DNA of 43,458 nucleotides, taken from Candidatus Omnitrophota bacterium (GTDB lineage Bacteria; Omnitrophota; Gorgyraeia; Zapsychrales; Zapsychraceae). The notes below the pieces were generated by a model. The model was not told the origin of the DNA and did not search any database. It saw only the letters and a program-made list of their open reading frames with translations. The DNA is taken from NCBI GenBank assembly GCA_015233495.1, contig JADFXQ010000011.1, forward strand, positions 1 to 43,458, in the 5' to 3' direction. The position numbers and the translations under genes were made by a program. Positions 7,759 through 29,053 of the stretch are shown here, piece by piece (the stretch's first letter is position 1; each line of letters begins with the position of its first letter).

Positions 7759-9188
7759 TTAAAATTGAAAATAGATGAAAGTTTCCGGTTTATTTGCCCC
7801 CCAGATCACCATGCCATACAACAGAGTGGCGTAAAATAAAGGCTGGACTATCCAAGGCAACCGCGTGAAAAGGATTAAATCCTTTTTATAATATTGAAAT
7901 CCTTGCGCAAGCAATAAAGGCGTTAGGTAAAAAAGCAGCAGGCTTAAATCGTTGGCGGTATGATAGTTCGCCGTAAAAGACGTGAACAAGGCCCCGGTCA
8001 TGGATACAACTTGACTCACGCTGGGGGAGCGGAATAATAACCATCCGAACAACGTAACGTGAAAAAAGAAAACTACCTGAAGCGGTTGGAGGAGGCCGGG
8101 AGGAAAAAATGATCCAATTTTAAAGTTGATTCTTTTAGTCCAAAACCGATGCAGGATCAATATGCTTCCATGGTAAAGTCCCCATAACACAAAAGTCCAG
8201 GCCGCCCCGTGCCATAAGCCTCCTAAGACCATTGTCAGCATCAAGTTTTTGTAGGTTGACCACTCTCCGTTGCGGTTTCCACCCAGAGGGATATACAAGT
8301 AATCGCGCAACCAGCTCGACAAACTGATGTGCCAGCGCTGCCAAAATTCCGGCGGATTGCGGGAAAAATACGGCCATTGGAAATTGATCGTGATTTCGAA
8401 ACCCATGCATTTCCCTAAGCCGCGGGCAATGTTGGAATAACCATCAAAATCGCAAAAAATTTGGAAAGCGAAAGCGTAAAGACTGATGAGGACATCCGTT
8501 CCATTGTAGGGAGGTTTTTGGGTAAACACCGGGTCGACAATTTTCGCCAGATTATCGGCGACAAAAATTTTTTCAAACAATCCCCAAGTGATGAAATTGC
8601 ACCCTTCATAAAACTGGTCCCAGCTTAGTCGACGGGGTCGGATGATCTGGGGCAGAAAATCTTTGGCCCGCATGATCGGCCCGGCGATGAGGTGGGGAAA
8701 ATAAATAACAAACAATAAGTAGTCTGTATAGTGGCGGGTGGGGGGGATGAGGCGGCGATAAACATCCACCGAATAACTGATCGCTTCAAAGGTATAAAAA
8801 GAAACCCCGACCGGTAAAATTATATTCAAAGCAAAGAGAGAGATTAAATGTTGGCTCGCGGGAAAGATCACATAGAGGAGTTCGCTCAAATTGTTGGCAA
8901 AGAAATTGTAATATTTGAAAAAAGCCAAAATCGACAAGTTCACCGCAATGCTGAAGATCAGGTAGGCGCGTCTTTTTTTTGCAGTTCGGTTCGACTCATG
9001 AAGCGGGCGCAATAAAAATCCGTGGTGATAGAGATAAACATGAGAAAAAGAAATTTCCAATTCCAAGCCGCGTAAAACAGGCAGCTAGCGACAATCAACA
9101 GACGGTTTTGCCAGCGGTGATCCAAGAAAATATAGAGGCCGTAGATAATAATAAAAAAGCAGAAGAAATTGAGGCTGTTAAATAACAT
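7759..9188 (-). CDS. MBOAT O-acyltransferase (AlgI-like), frame broken at an A8 tract
   Basis: Two adjacent frames make one membrane-bound O-acyltransferase of about 476 residues. The first (9188 to 8958) has the N-terminal helices (MLFNSLNFFCFFIIIYGLY) and ends after FMSRTELQKK. The second (to 7759) resumes with RRAYLIFSIAVNLS and holds the family core: GVSFYTFEAISY, FCDFDGYSNIA, WQRWHISLSSWLRDYLY and GLWHGAAW, with the active-site His. The break is at eight A on the coding strand (8973-8980). A -1 slip, or one extra A, joins both frames exactly. It may be a homopolymer error, a real mutation or programmed slippage. The product would move acyl groups across the inner membrane for the SGNH partner encoded 3 bp downstream. 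Confidence 0.8.
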
Positions 9189-9328
9189 ACAATATTAGAA
9201 TGTGTTACCGATTTATGGGACGGGCGGTATTATTGTTAATTCGATATGTCTTGTGTTATTATAATAAAAAATTAGCAAAGAGTGAAGTCGCCTTTGAAAA
9301 AATTAACCCATTTTAGCCGCAGGCAAAC

Positions 9329-9353
9329 AATAAATGGTGTCACCCCATTTATT
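9329..9353. repeat. Inverted repeat in the uup leader
   Basis: AATAAATGG (9329-9337) and CCATTTATT (9345-9353) are perfect 9-bp arms around a 7-bp loop, ending just before the Shine-Dalgarno AAAGGAG. A related half-site, GACACCATTTATTTA, precedes the RNA ligase start at about 12928-12942. The hairpin could modulate uup translation or be part of a dispersed repeat. A -10-like TATAAT lies upstream at 9260-9265. Confidence 0.5.
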
Positions 9354-9365
9354 TAAAGGAGATCC

Positions 9366-11267
9366 ATGGCATTGATCAGCATTCAAGACATTAGTCTGGC
9401 GTTCGGCGGGCCGAAATTGTTTGAGGATTTGAGTCTGCAGTTGGAAATGGGCGAGCGGGTCGCGCTTTTAGGCCGCAATGGCACGGGCAAAACGACTTTG
9501 ATGAAAATTGCGACTGGACAGATCGGTCCGGACACGGGTAAAGTGATTTTTCAAAAAGGGATACGCGCGACGCATTTGCCGCAGGAAATCCCCGCGGACA
9601 TCAAGGGAACGGTGTTTGACATTGTGTTGTCCGGTTTGGGGCAACGGGCAAAACTGATCAGCGACTATCACCACATCAGTCAGCGGTTAGCGACCGAACA
9701 TACCAAAGAATTGATGCGGGAACTGGATCGGTTGCAGACCGAGATTGATCACACCAACGGCTGGGAAATCAATAATCAGGTTGAATTGGTAATTTCTCAA
9801 ATGAAACTCGACCCGGAGATAGATTTTGCCGCTTTGTCCGGCGGGCAAAAGCGCCGCGCTTTGTTGGCCCGGGCCCTGGTGTTGAAACCGGAAGTCTTAT
9901 TACTCGACGAGCCTACCAATCATTTGGACATTGACGCGATTAAATGGCTGGAAGGTTTTTTGAAAAATTATGCCGGAGCTATATTTTTTGTGACGCATGA
10001 CCGGCAATTTATGGTTAACTTGGCGACGCGTATCACGGAGCTGGATCGCGGCCGGTTGTTTTCCTGGGCCTGCGATTATCCGACCTTTTTACAACGCAAG
10101 CAAATGGAGCTTGAGATTGAGACAGCGACGCGCGCGGATTTCGACAAGAAGCTCGCCGCGGAAGAAGTCTGGATCCGTCAAGGGGTGAAAGCCCGGCGCT
10201 GCCGCAATGAAGGCCGGGTCAAGGCCCTACAACGTCTGCGCGCGGAAAAACAGGCCCAGCGTCAGGCAGTCGGGCAGGTCAAGTTCCGGGTTCAGGAAAC
10301 TGATCCGTCGGGACATTTGGTAATCAAGGCCTCGCGCCTGGGCCAAAGTTATGGTGACCTTTGCTTGATCCGCGATTTTTCAACGCAGATCATGCGCGGC
10401 GATAAGATTGGCGTGATCGGCCCGAACGGCAGCGGCAAGACCACGTTGTTAAAAATTTTGCTGAGCAAGATGCAGCCGAGCAAGGGGTCGATCCGGTTCG
10501 GCACGAATCTGGAGATTGCTTATTATGACCAAATGCGCGAACAATTGGACGAAGAGAAGACAGTGATCGAAAATATCTGCGGCGCGAGCGACTCCATCAC
10601 GATCAACGGCAAGCCGCGGCATATTATCGGTTATCTGCAAGATTTTCTTTTTTCGCCGGACCGCGCCCGCACGCCGGTCAAGGTATTATCTGGCGGAGAA
10701 CGCAACCGGTTGTTTCTGGCTTGGTTGTTTACTAAGCCGTCGAATTTGCTGGTGATGGATGAGCCGACAAATGACTTAGATATTGAGACCCTGGAGCTGC
10801 TCGAAGAAATGCTTTTGGACTATTCCGGGACTTTGCTTTTGGTCAGTCATGACCGGGCTTTTTTAAATAATGTGGTGACTTCGACAATGGTTTTGGAAGG
10901 CGCCGGAGAAGTGAATGAATATCCCGGGGGGTATGATGATTGGCTGGATCAGCGGCCTAAGCCGGCGCAATCAGCGGCCGCGGTTCGGGAAAAGCCTCGG
11001 GAGCCGCGCCGGGAGGAAGTTCAGCCGGCCATGCCGAATTTTGTCCGAAAATTATCGAATAAAGAAGAGCGCGAATTAGCCAGTTTGCCCGCGAAAATCG
11101 AGAGTTTAGAGGCGGAGCAAGATAGGATTTTGGATATAGTCGCGGAGGTTAATTTTTATAAAAAAGACCCGGCCGAAATCCTAAAAATCAAGGCGAAATT
11201 GGAATGTATCGAAGACGAATTACTCGCGGTGTTTGAACGTTGGGAGCATTTGGAAAGTTTACGATAG
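9366..11267 (+). CDS. uup: ABC-F family ATPase Uup
   Basis: The 633-residue soluble protein has two ABC ATPase domains and no membrane segments. Walker A motifs are GRNGTGKTT (about 37-45) and GPNGSGKTT (about 348-356). Signature motifs are LSGGQKRR and LSGGERNR, each followed by a Walker B with DEPTN. A charged inter-domain linker lies near 240-310 and a C-terminal coiled coil at about 560-633. Twin ABC domains plus a C-terminal coiled coil is the Uup layout. ABC-F proteins act on ribosomes, and Uup homologues also bind branched DNA and affect transposon excision. It has a strong Shine-Dalgarno and is followed immediately by the lipoprotein gene, whose GGAGG overlaps the uup stop. Confidence 0.92.
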   Translation: MALISIQDISLAFGGPKLFEDLSLQLEMGERVALLGRNGTGKTTLMKIATGQIGPDTGKVIFQKGIRATHLPQEIPADIKGTVFDIVLSGLGQRAKLISDYHHISQRLATEHTKELMRELDRLQTEIDHTNGWEINNQVELVISQMKLDPEIDFAALSGGQKRRALLARALVLKPEVLLLDEPTNHLDIDAIKWLEGFLKNYAGAIFFVTHDRQFMVNLATRITELDRGRLFSWACDYPTFLQRKQMELEIETATRADFDKKLAAEEVWIRQGVKARRCRNEGRVKALQRLRAEKQAQRQAVGQVKFRVQETDPSGHLVIKASRLGQSYGDLCLIRDFSTQIMRGDKIGVIGPNGSGKTTLLKILLSKMQPSKGSIRFGTNLEIAYYDQMREQLDEEKTVIENICGASDSITINGKPRHIIGYLQDFLFSPDRARTPVKVLSGGERNRLFLAWLFTKPSNLLVMDEPTNDLDIETLELLEEMLLDYSGTLLLVSHDRAFLNNVVTSTMVLEGAGEVNEYPGGYDDWLDQRPKPAQSAAAVREKPREPRREEVQPAMPNFVRKLSNKEERELASLPAKIESLEAEQDRILDIVAEVNFYKKDPAEILKIKAKLECIEDELLAVFERWEHLESLR

Positions 11268-23767: not shown

Positions 23768-24028
23768 ATGGTCATTTCCATATCGAAAATAACATCCAAA
23801 CGACAAATCACGCTTCCCGTGAAAGTGATGAGTCGTTTGAAACTGCACCCCGGCGGCCGGCTCGTGTTTGAAGAAACGGACGGCCGCGTCGAAATCAAAA
23901 GCGTTGCCGCGACATTTACGATCGCCGATTTCGTGAAAAAATACCGCGGGATGGTTTCCAAAAAACTTTCGGATCAACAGATCCGGGATGCCCGGGAAGA
24001 GGCTTGGGTCGCGAGGGCCGGCCGATGA
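23768..24028 (+). CDS. vapB: AbrB/MazE-type antitoxin VapB
   Basis: The 86-residue protein has a SpoVT-AbrB swapped-hairpin DNA-binding domain: ISKITSKRQITLPVKVMSRL then PGGRLVFEETDGRVEIKS. A C-terminal tail (DFVKKYRGMVSKKLSDQQIR) would wrap the toxin. It overlaps the PIN toxin gene by ATGA at 24025-24028. AAGGAGG is 5 bases before the ATG. The protein should neutralise VapC and repress the operon; a palindrome overlaps its ribosome site. Confidence 0.88.
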   Translation: MVISISKITSKRQITLPVKVMSRLKLHPGGRLVFEETDGRVEIKSVAATFTIADFVKKYRGMVSKKLSDQQIRDAREEAWVARAGR

Positions 24029-24414
24029 AAATCGCGTTTGACACGAATGTCATTGTTCGGATGATCGCGCTGGATGATGAAGTTCGTCTTAAAAAAGCGA
24101 TCGGACTGATTCAGAAACATCAGCCCAAAGATATTTTTATATGTTACGGCGTATTTATCGAGGCCTATTATGTTTTAACCAAGCAGTATGATATGCCGAA
24201 AGACAAGGTGTTGGACGCGTTTGAAGATTTACTGCGGGTGGAACAATTTTCGGTTGATCAGGAAACCGCCCTGCGCCTGGCGATCAGCAAAGCTAAGAAA
24301 GGCGGCGCTTTCAACGATGCTTTGATCGGCGAGGTCGGAGCGGTCAAAAACGTTAGAACTGATACATTCGACAAGGCGTTGAAAAACAACAATAGTTTCG
24401 AAGTCTTATCCTAG
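24025..24414 (+). CDS. vapC: PIN-domain toxin VapC
   Basis: The 129-residue PIN-domain RNase starts MKIAFDTNVIVRM with Asp6. It has Glu46 (YGVFIEAYYVL), Asp98 (GGAFNDALIGE) and Asp113/Asp116 (RTDTFDKAL), the acidic set that binds Mg or Mn. VapC toxins cut tRNA or rRNA. ATG 24025 overlaps the vapB stop, which fixes the start; the ATG at 24004 lies inside vapB. All catalytic acids are present, so the toxin looks intact. This pair marks the left border of the AT-rich island that follows. Confidence 0.9.
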   Translation: MKIAFDTNVIVRMIALDDEVRLKKAIGLIQKHQPKDIFICYGVFIEAYYVLTKQYDMPKDKVLDAFEDLLRVEQFSVDQETALRLAISKAKKGGAFNDALIGEVGAVKNVRTDTFDKALKNNNSFEVLS

Positions 24415-24503
24415 TTTCCCGTCCGAATCCATCAGCCTTTTTCTCCCCAATTGTTTTTAAATAAATGGTTGACAATGTATTATTTTTGTATACCATCGTA
24501 TGT

Positions 24504-25130
24504 ATGGCTGAGTTTTTGACAAAGATCCAAATACAAGCTATTCGAGAAATACGTTCTTTTATGGCGTGCAAAGGTAGAAGTCCGTCTGTAAGGGAATTGA
24601 TGATTTCTCTCGGATATAAATCTCCGCGTTCGGCGGCTAATATCATTAATGATTTAATTCATCAAAAAATTCTGTTGAGAAAAGACCATCGGCAGTTTGT
24701 ATTTTTGAAAAATATTTCATGGGGCGATAGCGGAGCTATGACTGTTGATGTTCCGTTGGTCGGTATTGCGCCTTGTGGTTCGCCGGTTTTTGCGGAGGAG
24801 AATATTCAAACAACAATACCGGTTTCCATTTCTATAGCCAAGCCGCCATATAAATATTTTTTAGTCAAGGCCAAAGGCGATTCAATGGATCTTTCTGGAA
24901 TATCAGACGGAGATTTAGTTCTATCGCGGCAACAGTCTGTGGCAGAGAGCGGGGATCGGGTGATTGCTTTAATTAATAATGAAGTAACGATCAAATTAAT
25001 AAAATTCACGGAAGGCGCGGTTATTTTATTGCCGAATTCTTCGAACGCGGCACATAAACCGATTATTTTAGGTAATGATTTTGAAATCCAAGGCGTTATC
25101 ACGTGTGTGATACCTTTAGATGGCGTATAA
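24504..25130 (+). CDS. LexA-like S24 repressor
   Basis: The 208-residue protein has a LexA-type winged helix (about 8-72: IQAIREIRSFMACKGRSPSV then SPRSAANIINDLI) and an S24 self-cleaving domain. The cleavage site is probably Cys-Gly in GIAPCGSPVFA, the catalytic Ser lies in KAKGDSMDLSGI and the Lys in NNEVTIKLIKF. It should be a DNA-damage-inducible repressor. The gene is AT-rich compared with vapC and umuC. TTGACA (24469-24474) and TATACC (24489-24494) lie just upstream, but the spacer is only 14 bp. No ribosome site is seen before ATG 24504. Its stop overlaps a 25-residue ORF that leads directly into a DNA methyltransferase gene, so it may control that gene. It may be a prophage-type or the cellular LexA. 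Confidence 0.82.
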   Translation: MAEFLTKIQIQAIREIRSFMACKGRSPSVRELMISLGYKSPRSAANIINDLIHQKILLRKDHRQFVFLKNISWGDSGAMTVDVPLVGIAPCGSPVFAEENIQTTIPVSISIAKPPYKYFLVKAKGDSMDLSGISDGDLVLSRQQSVAESGDRVIALINNEVTIKLIKFTEGAVILLPNSSNAAHKPIILGNDFEIQGVITCVIPLDGV

Positions 25131-25197
25131 AAAAGTCCTGACGGTCGAAAGCTTTATTGACGGAAAAATTATAAAATTAGAGGAAGGAGATGCTTAA
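25120..25197 (+). CDS. 25-residue linker ORF between the repressor and methyltransferase genes
   Basis: ATG 25120 overlaps the end of the LexA-like gene, and the TAA (25195-25197) directly abuts the methyltransferase ATG at 25198. It encodes MAYKKVLTVESFIDGKII and ends KLEEGDA. The methyltransferase Shine-Dalgarno (GGAAGGAG) lies inside it. The exact joins suggest a translated coupling peptide. I know no family; it may be a leader or a real small protein. Confidence 0.5.
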   Translation: MAYKKVLTVESFIDGKIIKLEEGDA

Positions 25198-26331
25198 ATG
25201 TTAGAAACAATGATTGCTCCCCAAAAAGTAAACGGCGCAAAAGACGCAATTAGTCGATATGTCCGATTAAAACAGGAATTGGATCAGGATATATTCAATA
25301 ACCGATGGTTTGTTGAAGACTCCTTAAATGTATCTTTAGAGGATTTTTGTTATAATTATGTTGATTTGTTTTCTGGGGCAGGAGGTTTGTCCTTGGGTTT
25401 CACTCATGCAAATTTTGAAAAAATTGTCAGTAGTGAGATTGATCCCGACGCGTCCGCGACAAACAAACGTCATTGGCCTAATGCGATTCATTTGGAAGGT
25501 CCGATCGAAAATTTTTCGGATGGGGATATTATTAAGGCGACAAAAGGTCAAACAATTCATGTTGTCTGTGGAGGGCCGCCATGCAATGGATTTTCAGTTG
25601 CAGGTATGCGTAATCCCCAGGATCCGCGTAATTTATTGTTTAAGCAATTTGTCAGAGTTGTCAATTTGATTAAGCCGTGGTTTGTACTTATGGAAAATGT
25701 GCCGGGGATTCTTACTATGTCGGGGGGGCAAGTGAAGGACACTATTCTGCAATCATTTGAGAAAATCGATTATCCGAATATGTCTGTCCGCATCCTTGAA
25801 GCGGCGGATTATGGAGTTCCTCAATTAAGAACAAGAGCAATTTTTGTTGGTAATCGATTTAATTTTTTAAATCCTTATCCTAAAGAAATTTATTCAAGAG
25901 CTAATTATCGACCAATTGAAGGCGCTATTAGAGATTTAATTGATGTTCCCAGGACTTCTTCAATCAATCATGAATGGACGGATCACTCGAAAGAGTTTGA
26001 GAGAAGAATCTCAAAGGTTCTACCTGGAGGGTCGCTGTATCCTTCATTCCGGGATGCTTTTAAGCGGCAGTATTTAGGGGTCCCGTCTATGACGATTAAA
26101 GAAAATCATGGAGGGACGCATATTCACCCTATATTGAATCGGGTTATTTCTGTACGTGAAATGGCTCGATTGCAAACTTTTCCGGATGATTTTTATTTTG
26201 AAGGAGGGATGAAGCGCGGAATGTGGCAAGTCGGTAATGCGGTCCCGGTCTTAATGGCGGAACATATGGCGAGAGCATTAAGGCCTAGTTTGGATAGGAT
26301 CAGAGAGAAAAAGACTCGGAAAGAGAGATAG
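25198..26331 (+). CDS. DNA cytosine-5 methyltransferase
   Basis: The 377-residue C5 methyltransferase has motif I VDLFSGAGGLSLGF (55-68), motif IV GGPPCNGFS (125-133) with catalytic Cys129, motif VI ENVPG (166-170), motif VIII-like QLRTRAIFVG, motif IX RVISVREMARLQTFPDDF and motif X QVGNAVP. The target-recognition region lies between VIII and IX, so specificity cannot be read. An N-terminal extension of about 50 residues precedes motif I. It is AT-rich, converges on the restriction-endonuclease-like gene with 8 bp between, and follows the LexA-like gene through a 25-codon ORF. It should protect DNA from the partner endonuclease; with that gene broken it may be a solitary methyltransferase. 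Confidence 0.93.
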   Translation: MLETMIAPQKVNGAKDAISRYVRLKQELDQDIFNNRWFVEDSLNVSLEDFCYNYVDLFSGAGGLSLGFTHANFEKIVSSEIDPDASATNKRHWPNAIHLEGPIENFSDGDIIKATKGQTIHVVCGGPPCNGFSVAGMRNPQDPRNLLFKQFVRVVNLIKPWFVLMENVPGILTMSGGQVKDTILQSFEKIDYPNMSVRILEAADYGVPQLRTRAIFVGNRFNFLNPYPKEIYSRANYRPIEGAIRDLIDVPRTSSINHEWTDHSKEFERRISKVLPGGSLYPSFRDAFKRQYLGVPSMTIKENHGGTHIHPILNRVISVREMARLQTFPDDFYFEGGMKRGMWQVGNAVPVLMAEHMARALRPSLDRIREKKTRKER

Positions 26332-26339
26332 AAGACAGG

Positions 26340-27257
26340 TTATATTTTTTCGGCAAGACGCTTTCGCCATTCTTGGATATCGTACCAAGGACATCCGAAA
26401 CAACCTTTTTCTGCGGCTTTGCCTAATTTGGGAATGTCGGTTGGCCAGTCTTGATTCCCTGAATAAAAGAATTTTATGCCGAAGATTTCGCCCCGCTTGT
26501 TAGTTTGAAAGCAATTCCTGCAAATTTCGCGTTTTTGTTGGTTTCGTTGGTTGTCGAGGAGCTGAAATTTATTTTTGATTTCGTCATCAGACATCGAATC
26601 CGGATTTTTTTCGCGGGTATTTTTATCCCATCGAATTTCCGGGAATTTGTGGTCGGGAATTAAGGCGTTTATTGATGATGTCTTTTTAAATTCATAAACA
26701 TTGAAATAATTTAATACTTTCATAATGCGTTTGCGTAGTTCCGCGGACCATATTTCATATCCGGAGCTGTTTTTGGGGTCTCGGGGAATAAGTAGTAAAT
26801 AAGTTGACTTTTTGCTTGATCAAGGTTGAGTTGCGAGCAGATATCCCATATCTTTGATATCTTGTATTCTTCGAGCCCAGTTCGGATTACTGGGAAAATC
26901 CTTCTTAACGCAACACCAACGCAGAGAAAGTAGTTTGTCGAAAAACTTTTTTGTAATTTCCTTCCCGACATAATTTTTATTCCAAATATTTTTTTGCCGA
27001 TTAACCCAAAGAAGATCGTTCTTATTAGCATATAGATTATAAATTTCGAGGATCCATGCCGCAAGATCTTCATCGGTTTCTATAAAAAGCCCGCATCTTC
27101 TATATTGATAGGGTATCGATATTTTAAACTGTCTTTGATCTTCAGGAAATAACAATTCGACATCAACATATTTTTCGCTTGCTTTTGAATGTTCTCGAAA
27201 TTTCAGAATAGAAATTTGTTCTTTTGGTAGTTTTGAGCGTAGAGATATGAGTTCCAT
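26340..27257 (-). pseudogene. Restriction-endonuclease-like gene (HNH/beta-beta-alpha-metal type) with one in-frame TGA
   Basis: On the minus strand one frame runs from ATG 27255-27257 to TAA at 26340, about 305 codons, broken only by TGA at 26820-26822. Sequence continues without a shift on both sides: DIKDMGYLLATQP, stop, SSKKSTYLLLIPRDPK, then YEIWSAELRKRI. The C-terminal part has DHKFPEIRWDKNT and FQLLDNQRNQQKREICRNC, resembling an HNH-like nuclease site followed by a zinc ribbon (CRNC ... CFGC). With the adjacent cytosine methyltransferase it makes a type II restriction-modification pair. A single GGA-to-TGA change would explain the stop. An ATG at 26721-26723 could restart a 127-residue C-terminal piece. 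The exact family is not known to me. Confidence 0.65.
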
Positions 27258-27360
27258 AATTATTTCGGTAGAATATATGAACAGGAAAAAAATTGCAAAT
27301 GATATTTCATAGGGTTTATTCGTGCATTTTACTAATTCCATCGCTTTAAATCCGGAGCAA

Positions 27361-27822
27361 ATGTTTATGATCAGACCGCGGATTCAGGGTTGTCGCAAAG
27401 AGAGGCGGGAGGTTTTGCCTTTGTTTGTTTCGCCGGTGGCGGCGGGGTTTCCTTCGCCGGCGGATGATTATATTGATAAGTCTTTGGACTTGAATGAGCA
27501 TCTGATCCAGCGGCCGGCGGCTACGTTTTTTGTGCGGGTGGAAGGGGATTCGATGATCAATGCCGGGATCATGCCCGGATCGTTGTTGATCGTCGACCGT
27601 TCGGTCACGCCGGCCAACGGGAGCATCATTGTCGCGATTTTGGACGGCGAATTCACGGTGAAACGGTATAAAAAAACTAAGGATGAAATCATTTTGTCGC
27701 CGGAAAATCCGCGGTATGAACCGGTCGTCATCAAGGAAGGCCGGGATTTTGAAGTGTGGGGGGTGGTCCAGCATGTTATCCAGTCGTTTACCGCGAAATC
27801 CAAACATTTACGCCCTGATTGA
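27361..27822 (+). CDS. umuD: UmuD-like S24 protein
   Basis: The 153-residue protein has a short N-terminal arm and the S24 domain: [19 protein letters not shown] with the Ala-Gly cleavage site, [14 protein letters not shown] with the catalytic Ser, and [11 protein letters not shown] with the Lys. It has no DNA-binding domain, so it is UmuD rather than LexA. RecA-stimulated cleavage gives UmuD', which joins UmuC to form DNA polymerase V. GGAG lies just before ATG 27361. Its end overlaps umuC by 50 bp. GC content rises sharply here relative to the restriction-modification genes on its left. Confidence 0.9.
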
Positions 27823-29053
27823 TTGCAATAATTTTTACGCGTCGTGCGAACGGGTGTTTGATCCGTCTTTGCGGGGCAGGCCGGTGGTGGTCTTGTCCAA
27901 CAATGACGGGTGCGCGATTGCCCGGTCAGAGGAGGCCAAGGATTTGGGCATCAAGATGGGCCAGCCGTTTTTTGAATGGGAGCGGTTGGCCGCGCTCCAC
28001 GATATCCGGGTTTTTTCGTCGAATTTCGCGTTGTACGGCGATATGTCCCACCGGGTGATGACGATCCTGCGGGATTTCAGCCCCGATTTGGAAATCTATT
28101 CGATTGACGAGGCGTTTTTGTTGTTGAACGGCATGAATATCGACCATGAGAAATATGGCCGCGAGATTCGCCAACGGGTTTTGCAATGGACGGGTCTGCC
28201 GGTGTCCGTCGGGATTGCGCTGACCAAGACGCTCGCCAAGGTCGCCAACCATATTGCCAAGCGGCAAAAATTCCGCGGCGGCGTGAGTTGTTTGTTGGAC
28301 GCGGCGGTTTGTGACGCGGTTCTCGCGGAAACTCCGGTCCAGGATCTCTGGGGCATTGGCCGGCAGAAAATGAAATTGTTAAACAGTTATGGCATTATCA
28401 ATGCTTTGCAGTTAAAGGACGCGGATGATGTTTGGGTGAAAAAACATTTGTCCGTGATGACCCTGCGCACCGTGTATGAATTGCGCGGGATCAGCTGTGT
28501 CGGATTTGAGCAGATTCCGCCGGACAAAAAGACAATTGCCGCGACCCGGTCGTTTGGCACAGAGGTTTCGAGTTTTGAGGAATTGAACGAGAGTCTGGCC
28601 GCGTATACGGCGCGGGCCGCTGAGAAAATGCGGGAGCAGGACTGCGGCGCCGGGTCGATGCTGATTTTTGTCGAGACTAGTCCGTTTAAGGAGAATTATT
28701 ACGCGAACAGCGCCTCGATTGCGATCAATCCGGTCAGTGGGTACACGCCGGTTTTGATGAAATACGCCGCAGCCCTGCTTCGCCAAATTTATCGCGACGG
28801 TAAAATTTATAAACGGGCCGGCGTGATTCTGGGCGATTTTCAAAAAGCTGACAGCGGTTCTTACGAATTGTTCGCGGACACCCGCCGGGAGGCCCAGCGG
28901 GAAAAATTGATGGCAGCTTTAGACGGGCTCAACCGCCAAGAAAGACAAGTTGTGTTCGGCCAAGAAGGACTCGCCAAGCCGTGGTTTATGCGGCAGAGTC
29001 GTAAATCTCCGAGTTTTTCGACCCGGATTAGCGAGTGTTTGAAGGCCCGGTAA
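27773..29053 (+). CDS. umuC: Y-family DNA polymerase V subunit UmuC
   Basis: The 426-residue protein starts [20 protein letters not shown], then [20 protein letters not shown] and [16 protein letters not shown]. The catalytic acids lie in ALIDCNN and SIDEAF. A palm/fingers core and a helix-hairpin region ([11 protein letters not shown]) follow, with the C-terminal little finger ([11 protein letters not shown]). It performs error-prone translesion synthesis with UmuD'. ATG 27773 was chosen because the upstream codons are out-of-frame umuD; the two genes overlap by 50 bp, which couples translation. The size matches full-length UmuC. Confidence 0.94.

Follow-up and report, generated by a model that had tools for sequence, protein, structure and literature searches.

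A portable LexA-type cassette probably controls adjacent defence genes in Omnitrophota bacteria

The window analyzed here is a 43,458-nucleotide stretch of DNA from Candidatus Omnitrophota bacterium (assembly GCA_015233495.1, contig JADFXQ010000011.1). The gene order proposed for positions 24504–26331 by a first-pass annotation, a LexA-like repressor followed by a 25-codon micro-ORF and a DNA methyltransferase, was borne out, and all three reading frames are found where they had been placed. The contacts between them are also as described: the ATG of the micro-ORF lies 8 nt before the TAA of the repressor gene, and the micro-ORF TAA is immediately followed by the methyltransferase ATG (25198). 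A convergent restriction-endonuclease gene had been overlooked. The features of the locus are as follows.

24469–24474, + strand: TTGACA, −35 element of the cassette promoter, about where homology between cassettes begins (approximately −45 from the ATG)
24488–24503, + strand: GTATAC-CATC-GTATGT, predicted repressor operator, overlapping the predicted −10 element and abutting the start codon
24504–25130, + strand: repressor gene, LexA/S24 family, 208 amino acids (Pfam/NCBI domain matches, alignment, tree, structure prediction)
24774–24779, + strand: codons of the predicted self-cleavage site Cys91-Gly92, aligned with Ala84-Gly85 of E. coli LexA
24882–24884, + strand: codon of catalytic Ser127, aligned with LexA Ser119
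24993–24995, + strand: codon of catalytic Lys164, aligned with LexA Lys156
25120–25197, + strand: micro-ORF of 25 codons, MAYKKVLTVESFIDGKIIKLEEGDA, a genuine reading frame that is not conserved
25180–25189, + strand: Shine-Dalgarno-like GAGGAAGGAG of the methyltransferase gene, located by inspection
25198–26331, + strand: C5-cytosine DNA methyltransferase, 377 amino acids, type II restriction-modification (RM) modification enzyme
26340–27257, − strand: convergent type II restriction-endonuclease gene, ICEA family (PADLOC REase_II, PDLC03537)
26820–26822, − strand: in-frame TGA within the restriction-enzyme frame

A gene pair for a MazE-like antitoxin and a PIN-domain toxin is located at 23768–24414, just upstream of the repressor gene, and umuD and umuC are located at 27322–29053, downstream of the restriction gene.

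The repressor matches Peptidase_S24 (4.9e-22) and LexA_DNA_bind (5.8e-6), and the resulting architecture of a winged-helix DNA-binding domain joined to an S24 self-cleavage peptidase is that of the LexA/S24 proteins. A score of 111.9 bits was obtained against the lexA model TIGR00498, which barely passes the cut-off of 110.95. The predicted structure has a mean pLDDT of 82.6, and the best Foldseek matches are LexA structures, with a TM score of up to 0.84 for the C-terminal domain. On alignment to the LexA structures, Cys91-Gly92 coincides with the cleavage bond, and Ser127 and Lys164 coincide with the catalytic dyad. The Cys-Gly, Ser, and Lys residues of this predicted apparatus are invariant in 18 diverged members of the family (alignment A1). 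The repressor thus retains, as judged from these residues, the parts needed for self-cleavage, as had been proposed, and recA is present in the genome. Neither a WYL domain nor an HTH_3 match was detected in the repressor by domain search. LexA_DNA_bind and S24 domains are found in place of the features of an RM controller (C) protein. The earlier remark that the arrangement is unlike the usual control of RM systems is supported.

The methyltransferase matches DNA_methylase at 7.1e-61 and PADLOC MTase_II at 1e-99, and the C-terminal half of the convergent gene matches ICEA and PADLOC REase_II. A C5 methyltransferase next to a convergent REase_II gene marks the locus as type II RM. The restriction-enzyme frame is interrupted by the single TGA at 26820–26822, which could be an assembly error; a frameshift was considered and rejected when translation in a single frame gave the in-frame TGA instead. 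No solved relatives of the restriction enzyme were found by sequence search. The closest relative of the methyltransferase, from Halorientalis persicus (L003), is 53% identical and is accompanied by the same convergent nuclease, intact, with no LexA-like gene nearby. It follows that the methyltransferase and its nuclease move together as type II RM, and that the repressor is an added controller. The repressor was found inside the fetched flank in 4 of 30 related methyltransferase loci, and a module centred on the methyltransferase was rejected because its homologues are mostly without the repressor.

The first-pass annotation had pointed to 24469–24503 as the place to find the operator. That region proved correct, the predicted operator occupying 24488–24503. 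In most family loci an operator of the form GTATA-N5-GTATRY ends at the start codon, and it is present with at most two mismatches in 43 of the 45 loci, versus 54 of 2143 random stretches (2.5%). A TATAAT-like −10 element sits within the first half of the operator, so bound repressor should block transcription. With the operator abutting the ATG, the mRNA is probably leaderless. No terminator was found between lexA and the methyltransferase gene in the window. When pairs of loci with different cargo were compared, DNA homology extends from about 45 nt before the ATG, at the −35 box, to the lexA stop codon or up to about 80 nt past it. The conserved portable unit is promoter, operator, and lexA, and similarity is often lost at the start of the cargo.

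The repressor was searched for in this phylum, in plasmids, and in viral contigs. A profile run over 384 genomes of the phylum splits the matches cleanly, with full-length family members at 274 bits or more and other full-length matches at 170 bits or less. A total of 45 family loci were recovered, spread over 22 family-level groups. The relatives are 39–55% identical to the window repressor, and a genome can contain as many as four or five of them, fragments included, whereas the canonical LexA proteins of the same genomes are 25–35% identical to it. In the tree the family forms a clade apart from canonical LexA (SH-aLRT 97). The protein from the window is the most divergent of this clade, on a long branch inside it (end branch 1.26), and is assigned by alignment and tree as a divergent member of a defence-associated clade of LexA paralogues. 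No family-range member was found on plasmids or viral contigs; the best matches there (35–36% identity, at most 154 bits) fall within the canonical LexA range and were rejected as members.

Cargo was defined as the genes directly downstream on the same strand and was annotated with Pfam and PADLOC, in some cases by homology to annotated loci. Downstream sequence was readable for 40 non-redundant loci. Defence cargo is present in 31 of these, comprising 26 RM and 5 CBASS systems. The RM methyltransferases are of the C5, N4/N6, and D12 types, and the nucleases are DpnII, MvaI/BcnI, TdeIII, EcoRV, Mrr-type, NgoFVII-type, and Vsr (as C5 plus Vsr); Eco57I-type systems also occur. The five CBASS operons encode patatin, HNH-SAVED with an E2 protein, SAVED, S_4TM, and 2TM effectors, together with nucleotidyltransferases. 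Candidate defence cargo (MBL/PDC-M48B and PD-(D/E)XK) is found at 2 of the 40 loci and other cargo, non-defence or unknown (Bro-N, ORF6N, radical SAM, unknown), at 7. In the f11 genomes, family members at L131, L133, and L134 are without RM or CBASS genes behind them; the repressor is followed by a radical SAM/helix-hairpin-helix protein at L133 and apparently at L131, and by an ORF6N protein at L134.

Among canonical LexA genes, RM or CBASS neighbours were found at 0 of 10 loci (Fisher p = 9e-6, for a small control with one neighbour per locus). The coupling of repressor and cargo is far above chance and recurs before many defence systems. The tree implies at least 28 changes of cargo, and even close relatives differ in what they carry: Mrr-type (L071), TdeIII (L073), and EcoRV (L081) systems. 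Seen from the methyltransferase, an accompanying repressor is the exception, as the first-pass annotation had allowed might prove fatal to its proposal; seen from the repressor, defence cargo is the rule. The distinct module of repressor, micro-ORF, and methyltransferase that had been suggested, and whose gene order was to be sought in other genomes, was thus drawn too narrowly: the association of the repressor with defence genes stands, and the micro-ORF and a fixed cargo do not.

These observations are best explained by a portable LexA-type cassette that controls the adjacent defence operon and is probably relieved by RecA-stimulated self-cleavage, a reading to which a probability of about 0.7 is assigned. 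The domains and catalytic residues, the conserved operator, and the exchange of cargo suggest that bacteria of this phylum may switch on borrowed defences upon DNA damage, the damage response itself being suggested by a single feature, the self-cleavage apparatus.

The family might instead consist of mobile-element repressors of the phage CI/LexA type, with the recombinase of the element as the true target and the defence genes as passengers. In genome G130, genes for a small HTH protein and a large serine recombinase are immediately preceded by a second operator copy with one mismatch (L229, G130:C5, 1303–3212), 8.5 kb from a LexA/TdeIII cassette, and this region is possibly a defence-carrying mobile element. 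In genome G386 a divergent serine recombinase adjoins the cassette. However, a recombinase is missing from most of the fetched loci and was not noticed in the window, the promoter of the repressor is shared with the cargo, and viral contigs and plasmids yielded no member; this explanation is unlikely. At L066, a serine recombinase gene (8250–9893) adjoins and is divergent from the LexA-DpnII cassette.

It is also rather improbable that the repressor is an establishment timer like the RM controller proteins, acting by autorepression only and using the S24 domain for dimerization and not for damage sensing. C proteins do combine negative autoregulation with co-expression of their cargo (PMC3874152), and most of the cargo here is RM. 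The invariance of the cleavage site and the dyad would be unexpected, however, if cleavage were unused; CBASS cargo poses no establishment problem, and the fold is that of LexA, not XRE.

The third alternative is that the repressor is the ordinary SOS repressor of its genome, with the methyltransferase as an SOS gene or an incidental neighbour. No other LexA was found in the 91%-complete assembly, where UmuD is the only such protein besides the repressor, and both the marginal TIGR00498 score and the nearby umuDC genes fit this explanation. The distribution of operators does not. One perfect operator match occurs in the 2.1-Mb genome, at the promoter of the repressor itself, and the cassette operator was not found before recA or umuD; an operator common to several repair genes, as expected of a canonical SOS LexA, was not observed. 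Because of this single site, the repressor looks dedicated to the adjacent operon, and from the operator search it is very probably restricted to the operon that it heads. Sister genomes show roughly one operator for each cassette, and those with cassettes also have canonical LexA genes (25–30% identity), which carry a different box, CCACAC-N4-GTGTGG. There is no excess of this box in the genome of the window. The separation of the two clades in the tree also argues against the ordinary SOS repressor, which is already disfavoured. Neither the cassette operator nor the canonical one is found in front of umuD, and the link with umuDC that had been proposed is not supported; umuDC was rejected as part of the unit.

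Two further observations concern boxes in other genomes. At L231 (G315:C38), in a sister genome, the promoter ahead of a C5 methyltransferase gene (310–1611) carries the canonical LexA box TTGACATTCCACACAACTGTGTGGTATAAG at 110–125, and a Vsr-like gene is close by. The ordinary SOS response may govern this methyltransferase, which independently hints that the group favours damage control of methyltransferases. The G079 genome contains about 30 copies of CCACACGTAAGTGTGG, which probably represent an interspersed repeat rather than SOS boxes.

The coupling through the micro-ORF proposed in the first-pass annotation is not supported. A functional micro-ORF (leader peptide or small antitoxin) coupling translation of the repressor and methyltransferase is very improbable, since despite its exact start and stop overlaps and the presence of micro-ORFs at the equivalent place in L069 and L072, it is not conserved in the remaining loci and the methyltransferase gene has a strong ribosome-binding site of its own. 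When the gap was shuffled, 17% of trials left a frame of 25 codons or more open from the same ATG, and in 6% the stop codon fell no more than 6 nt from the methyltransferase ATG. The micro-ORF does not clearly exceed chance expectation and is probably incidental; it was rejected as a conserved component. The micro-ORFs of L069 and L072 (VTKCNRLKLEAKTG and VVVKYNRLKLEAADG) are similar to one another; each is located between the repressor and cargo genes and runs into the start codon that follows. The window micro-ORF has no significant similarity to either (shuffle P of 0.57 and 0.09).

The portable cassette would operate as follows. A repressor dimer would bind GTATA-N5-GTATRY over the −10 region and the start point and would repress its own gene and the co-transcribed cargo, which in the window is the type II RM methyltransferase. 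Single-stranded DNA would accumulate through phage replication or degradation, or when the system cuts its own under-methylated genome. The RecA filament formed on this DNA would stimulate cleavage of the repressor at Cys91-Gly92, and with the repressor lost the operon would be expressed until repair, after which newly made repressor would reset it. On arrival in a naive cell, where repressor is absent, an early burst of methyltransferase would be expected. Unbalanced RM activity induces SOS (PMC3874152), and the cutting of under-methylated self DNA could for that reason raise the methyltransferase in a safety loop. The restriction gene is on the opposite strand, outside the control of the cassette operator; given this position and the in-frame stop, the switch may in this genome govern a methyltransferase that lacks a working partner.

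The cassette bears on how mobile defence systems stay silent until they are required. The most recent paper found on this subject, PMC13373217, lists only three families of damage-responsive controllers, two described earlier and CapK/CapS as the third; a LexA-type family is not named there. In CapW/BrxR, CapH with CapP, and CapK with CapS, a repressor with its own operator lies directly upstream of exchangeable immune operons (BREX, CBASS, RM, Pycsar, and Bub) that are derepressed on DNA damage (PMC13373217, PMC9122601, PMC9122588). The present family resembles these Cap regulators in that the repressor gene lies directly upstream of, and on the same strand as, diverse immune operons. The Cap regulators employ a WYL domain, an HTH repressor with a separate protease, or an HTH/STAS repressor with a kinase, whereas in the present family one LexA/S24 protein should combine the roles of sensor target and self-protease, via RecA. 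The WYL domain of CapW/BrxR is lacking from the window repressor, and a separate metallopeptidase such as that of CapH and CapP was not seen among its annotated neighbours.

With LexA (TIGR00498), the family shares its domains, fold, cleavage dyad, an operator over the promoter, and, by prediction, autoregulation; it differs as a separate clade with another operator, a local regulon of one operon, several copies per genome, and exchange between defence cargos. C proteins such as C.AhdI and C.PvuII are likewise small regulators within RM operons that act on themselves and on the RM genes, but they are short, of the HTH type, and lack a self-cleavage domain, and the LexA family also heads CBASS operons. 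RptR is a repressor linked to RM systems and to a defence island, but it is a small helical dimer that recognizes a 6-bp palindrome and is associated with type I RM (PMC12255303). The phage CI and S24 repressors are DNA-damage-cleavable repressors over a mobile gene set; here the DNA-binding domain is LexA-type, the cargo is defence, and no phage genes were noticed in the window.

A search of open-licence papers outside bioRxiv found no account of diverse defence systems controlled by a LexA-type family. If the reading is correct, the cassette would link both RM and CBASS to RecA and SOS without an intermediary, and for RM it would suggest a safety loop in which self-cutting of under-methylated DNA raises the methyltransferase. 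As a one-protein switch with well-understood biochemistry, the LexA-type cassette is immediately testable. The chances appear somewhat better than even that this paralogue cassette of promoter, operator, and self-cleaving repressor, passed among RM, CBASS, and perhaps recombinase modules within an uncultured phylum, wires each acquired system to RecA by an operator of its own, apart from the host SOS box, and would constitute a fourth family of DNA-damage-responsive immune controllers beside CapW/BrxR, CapH-CapP, and CapK-CapS.
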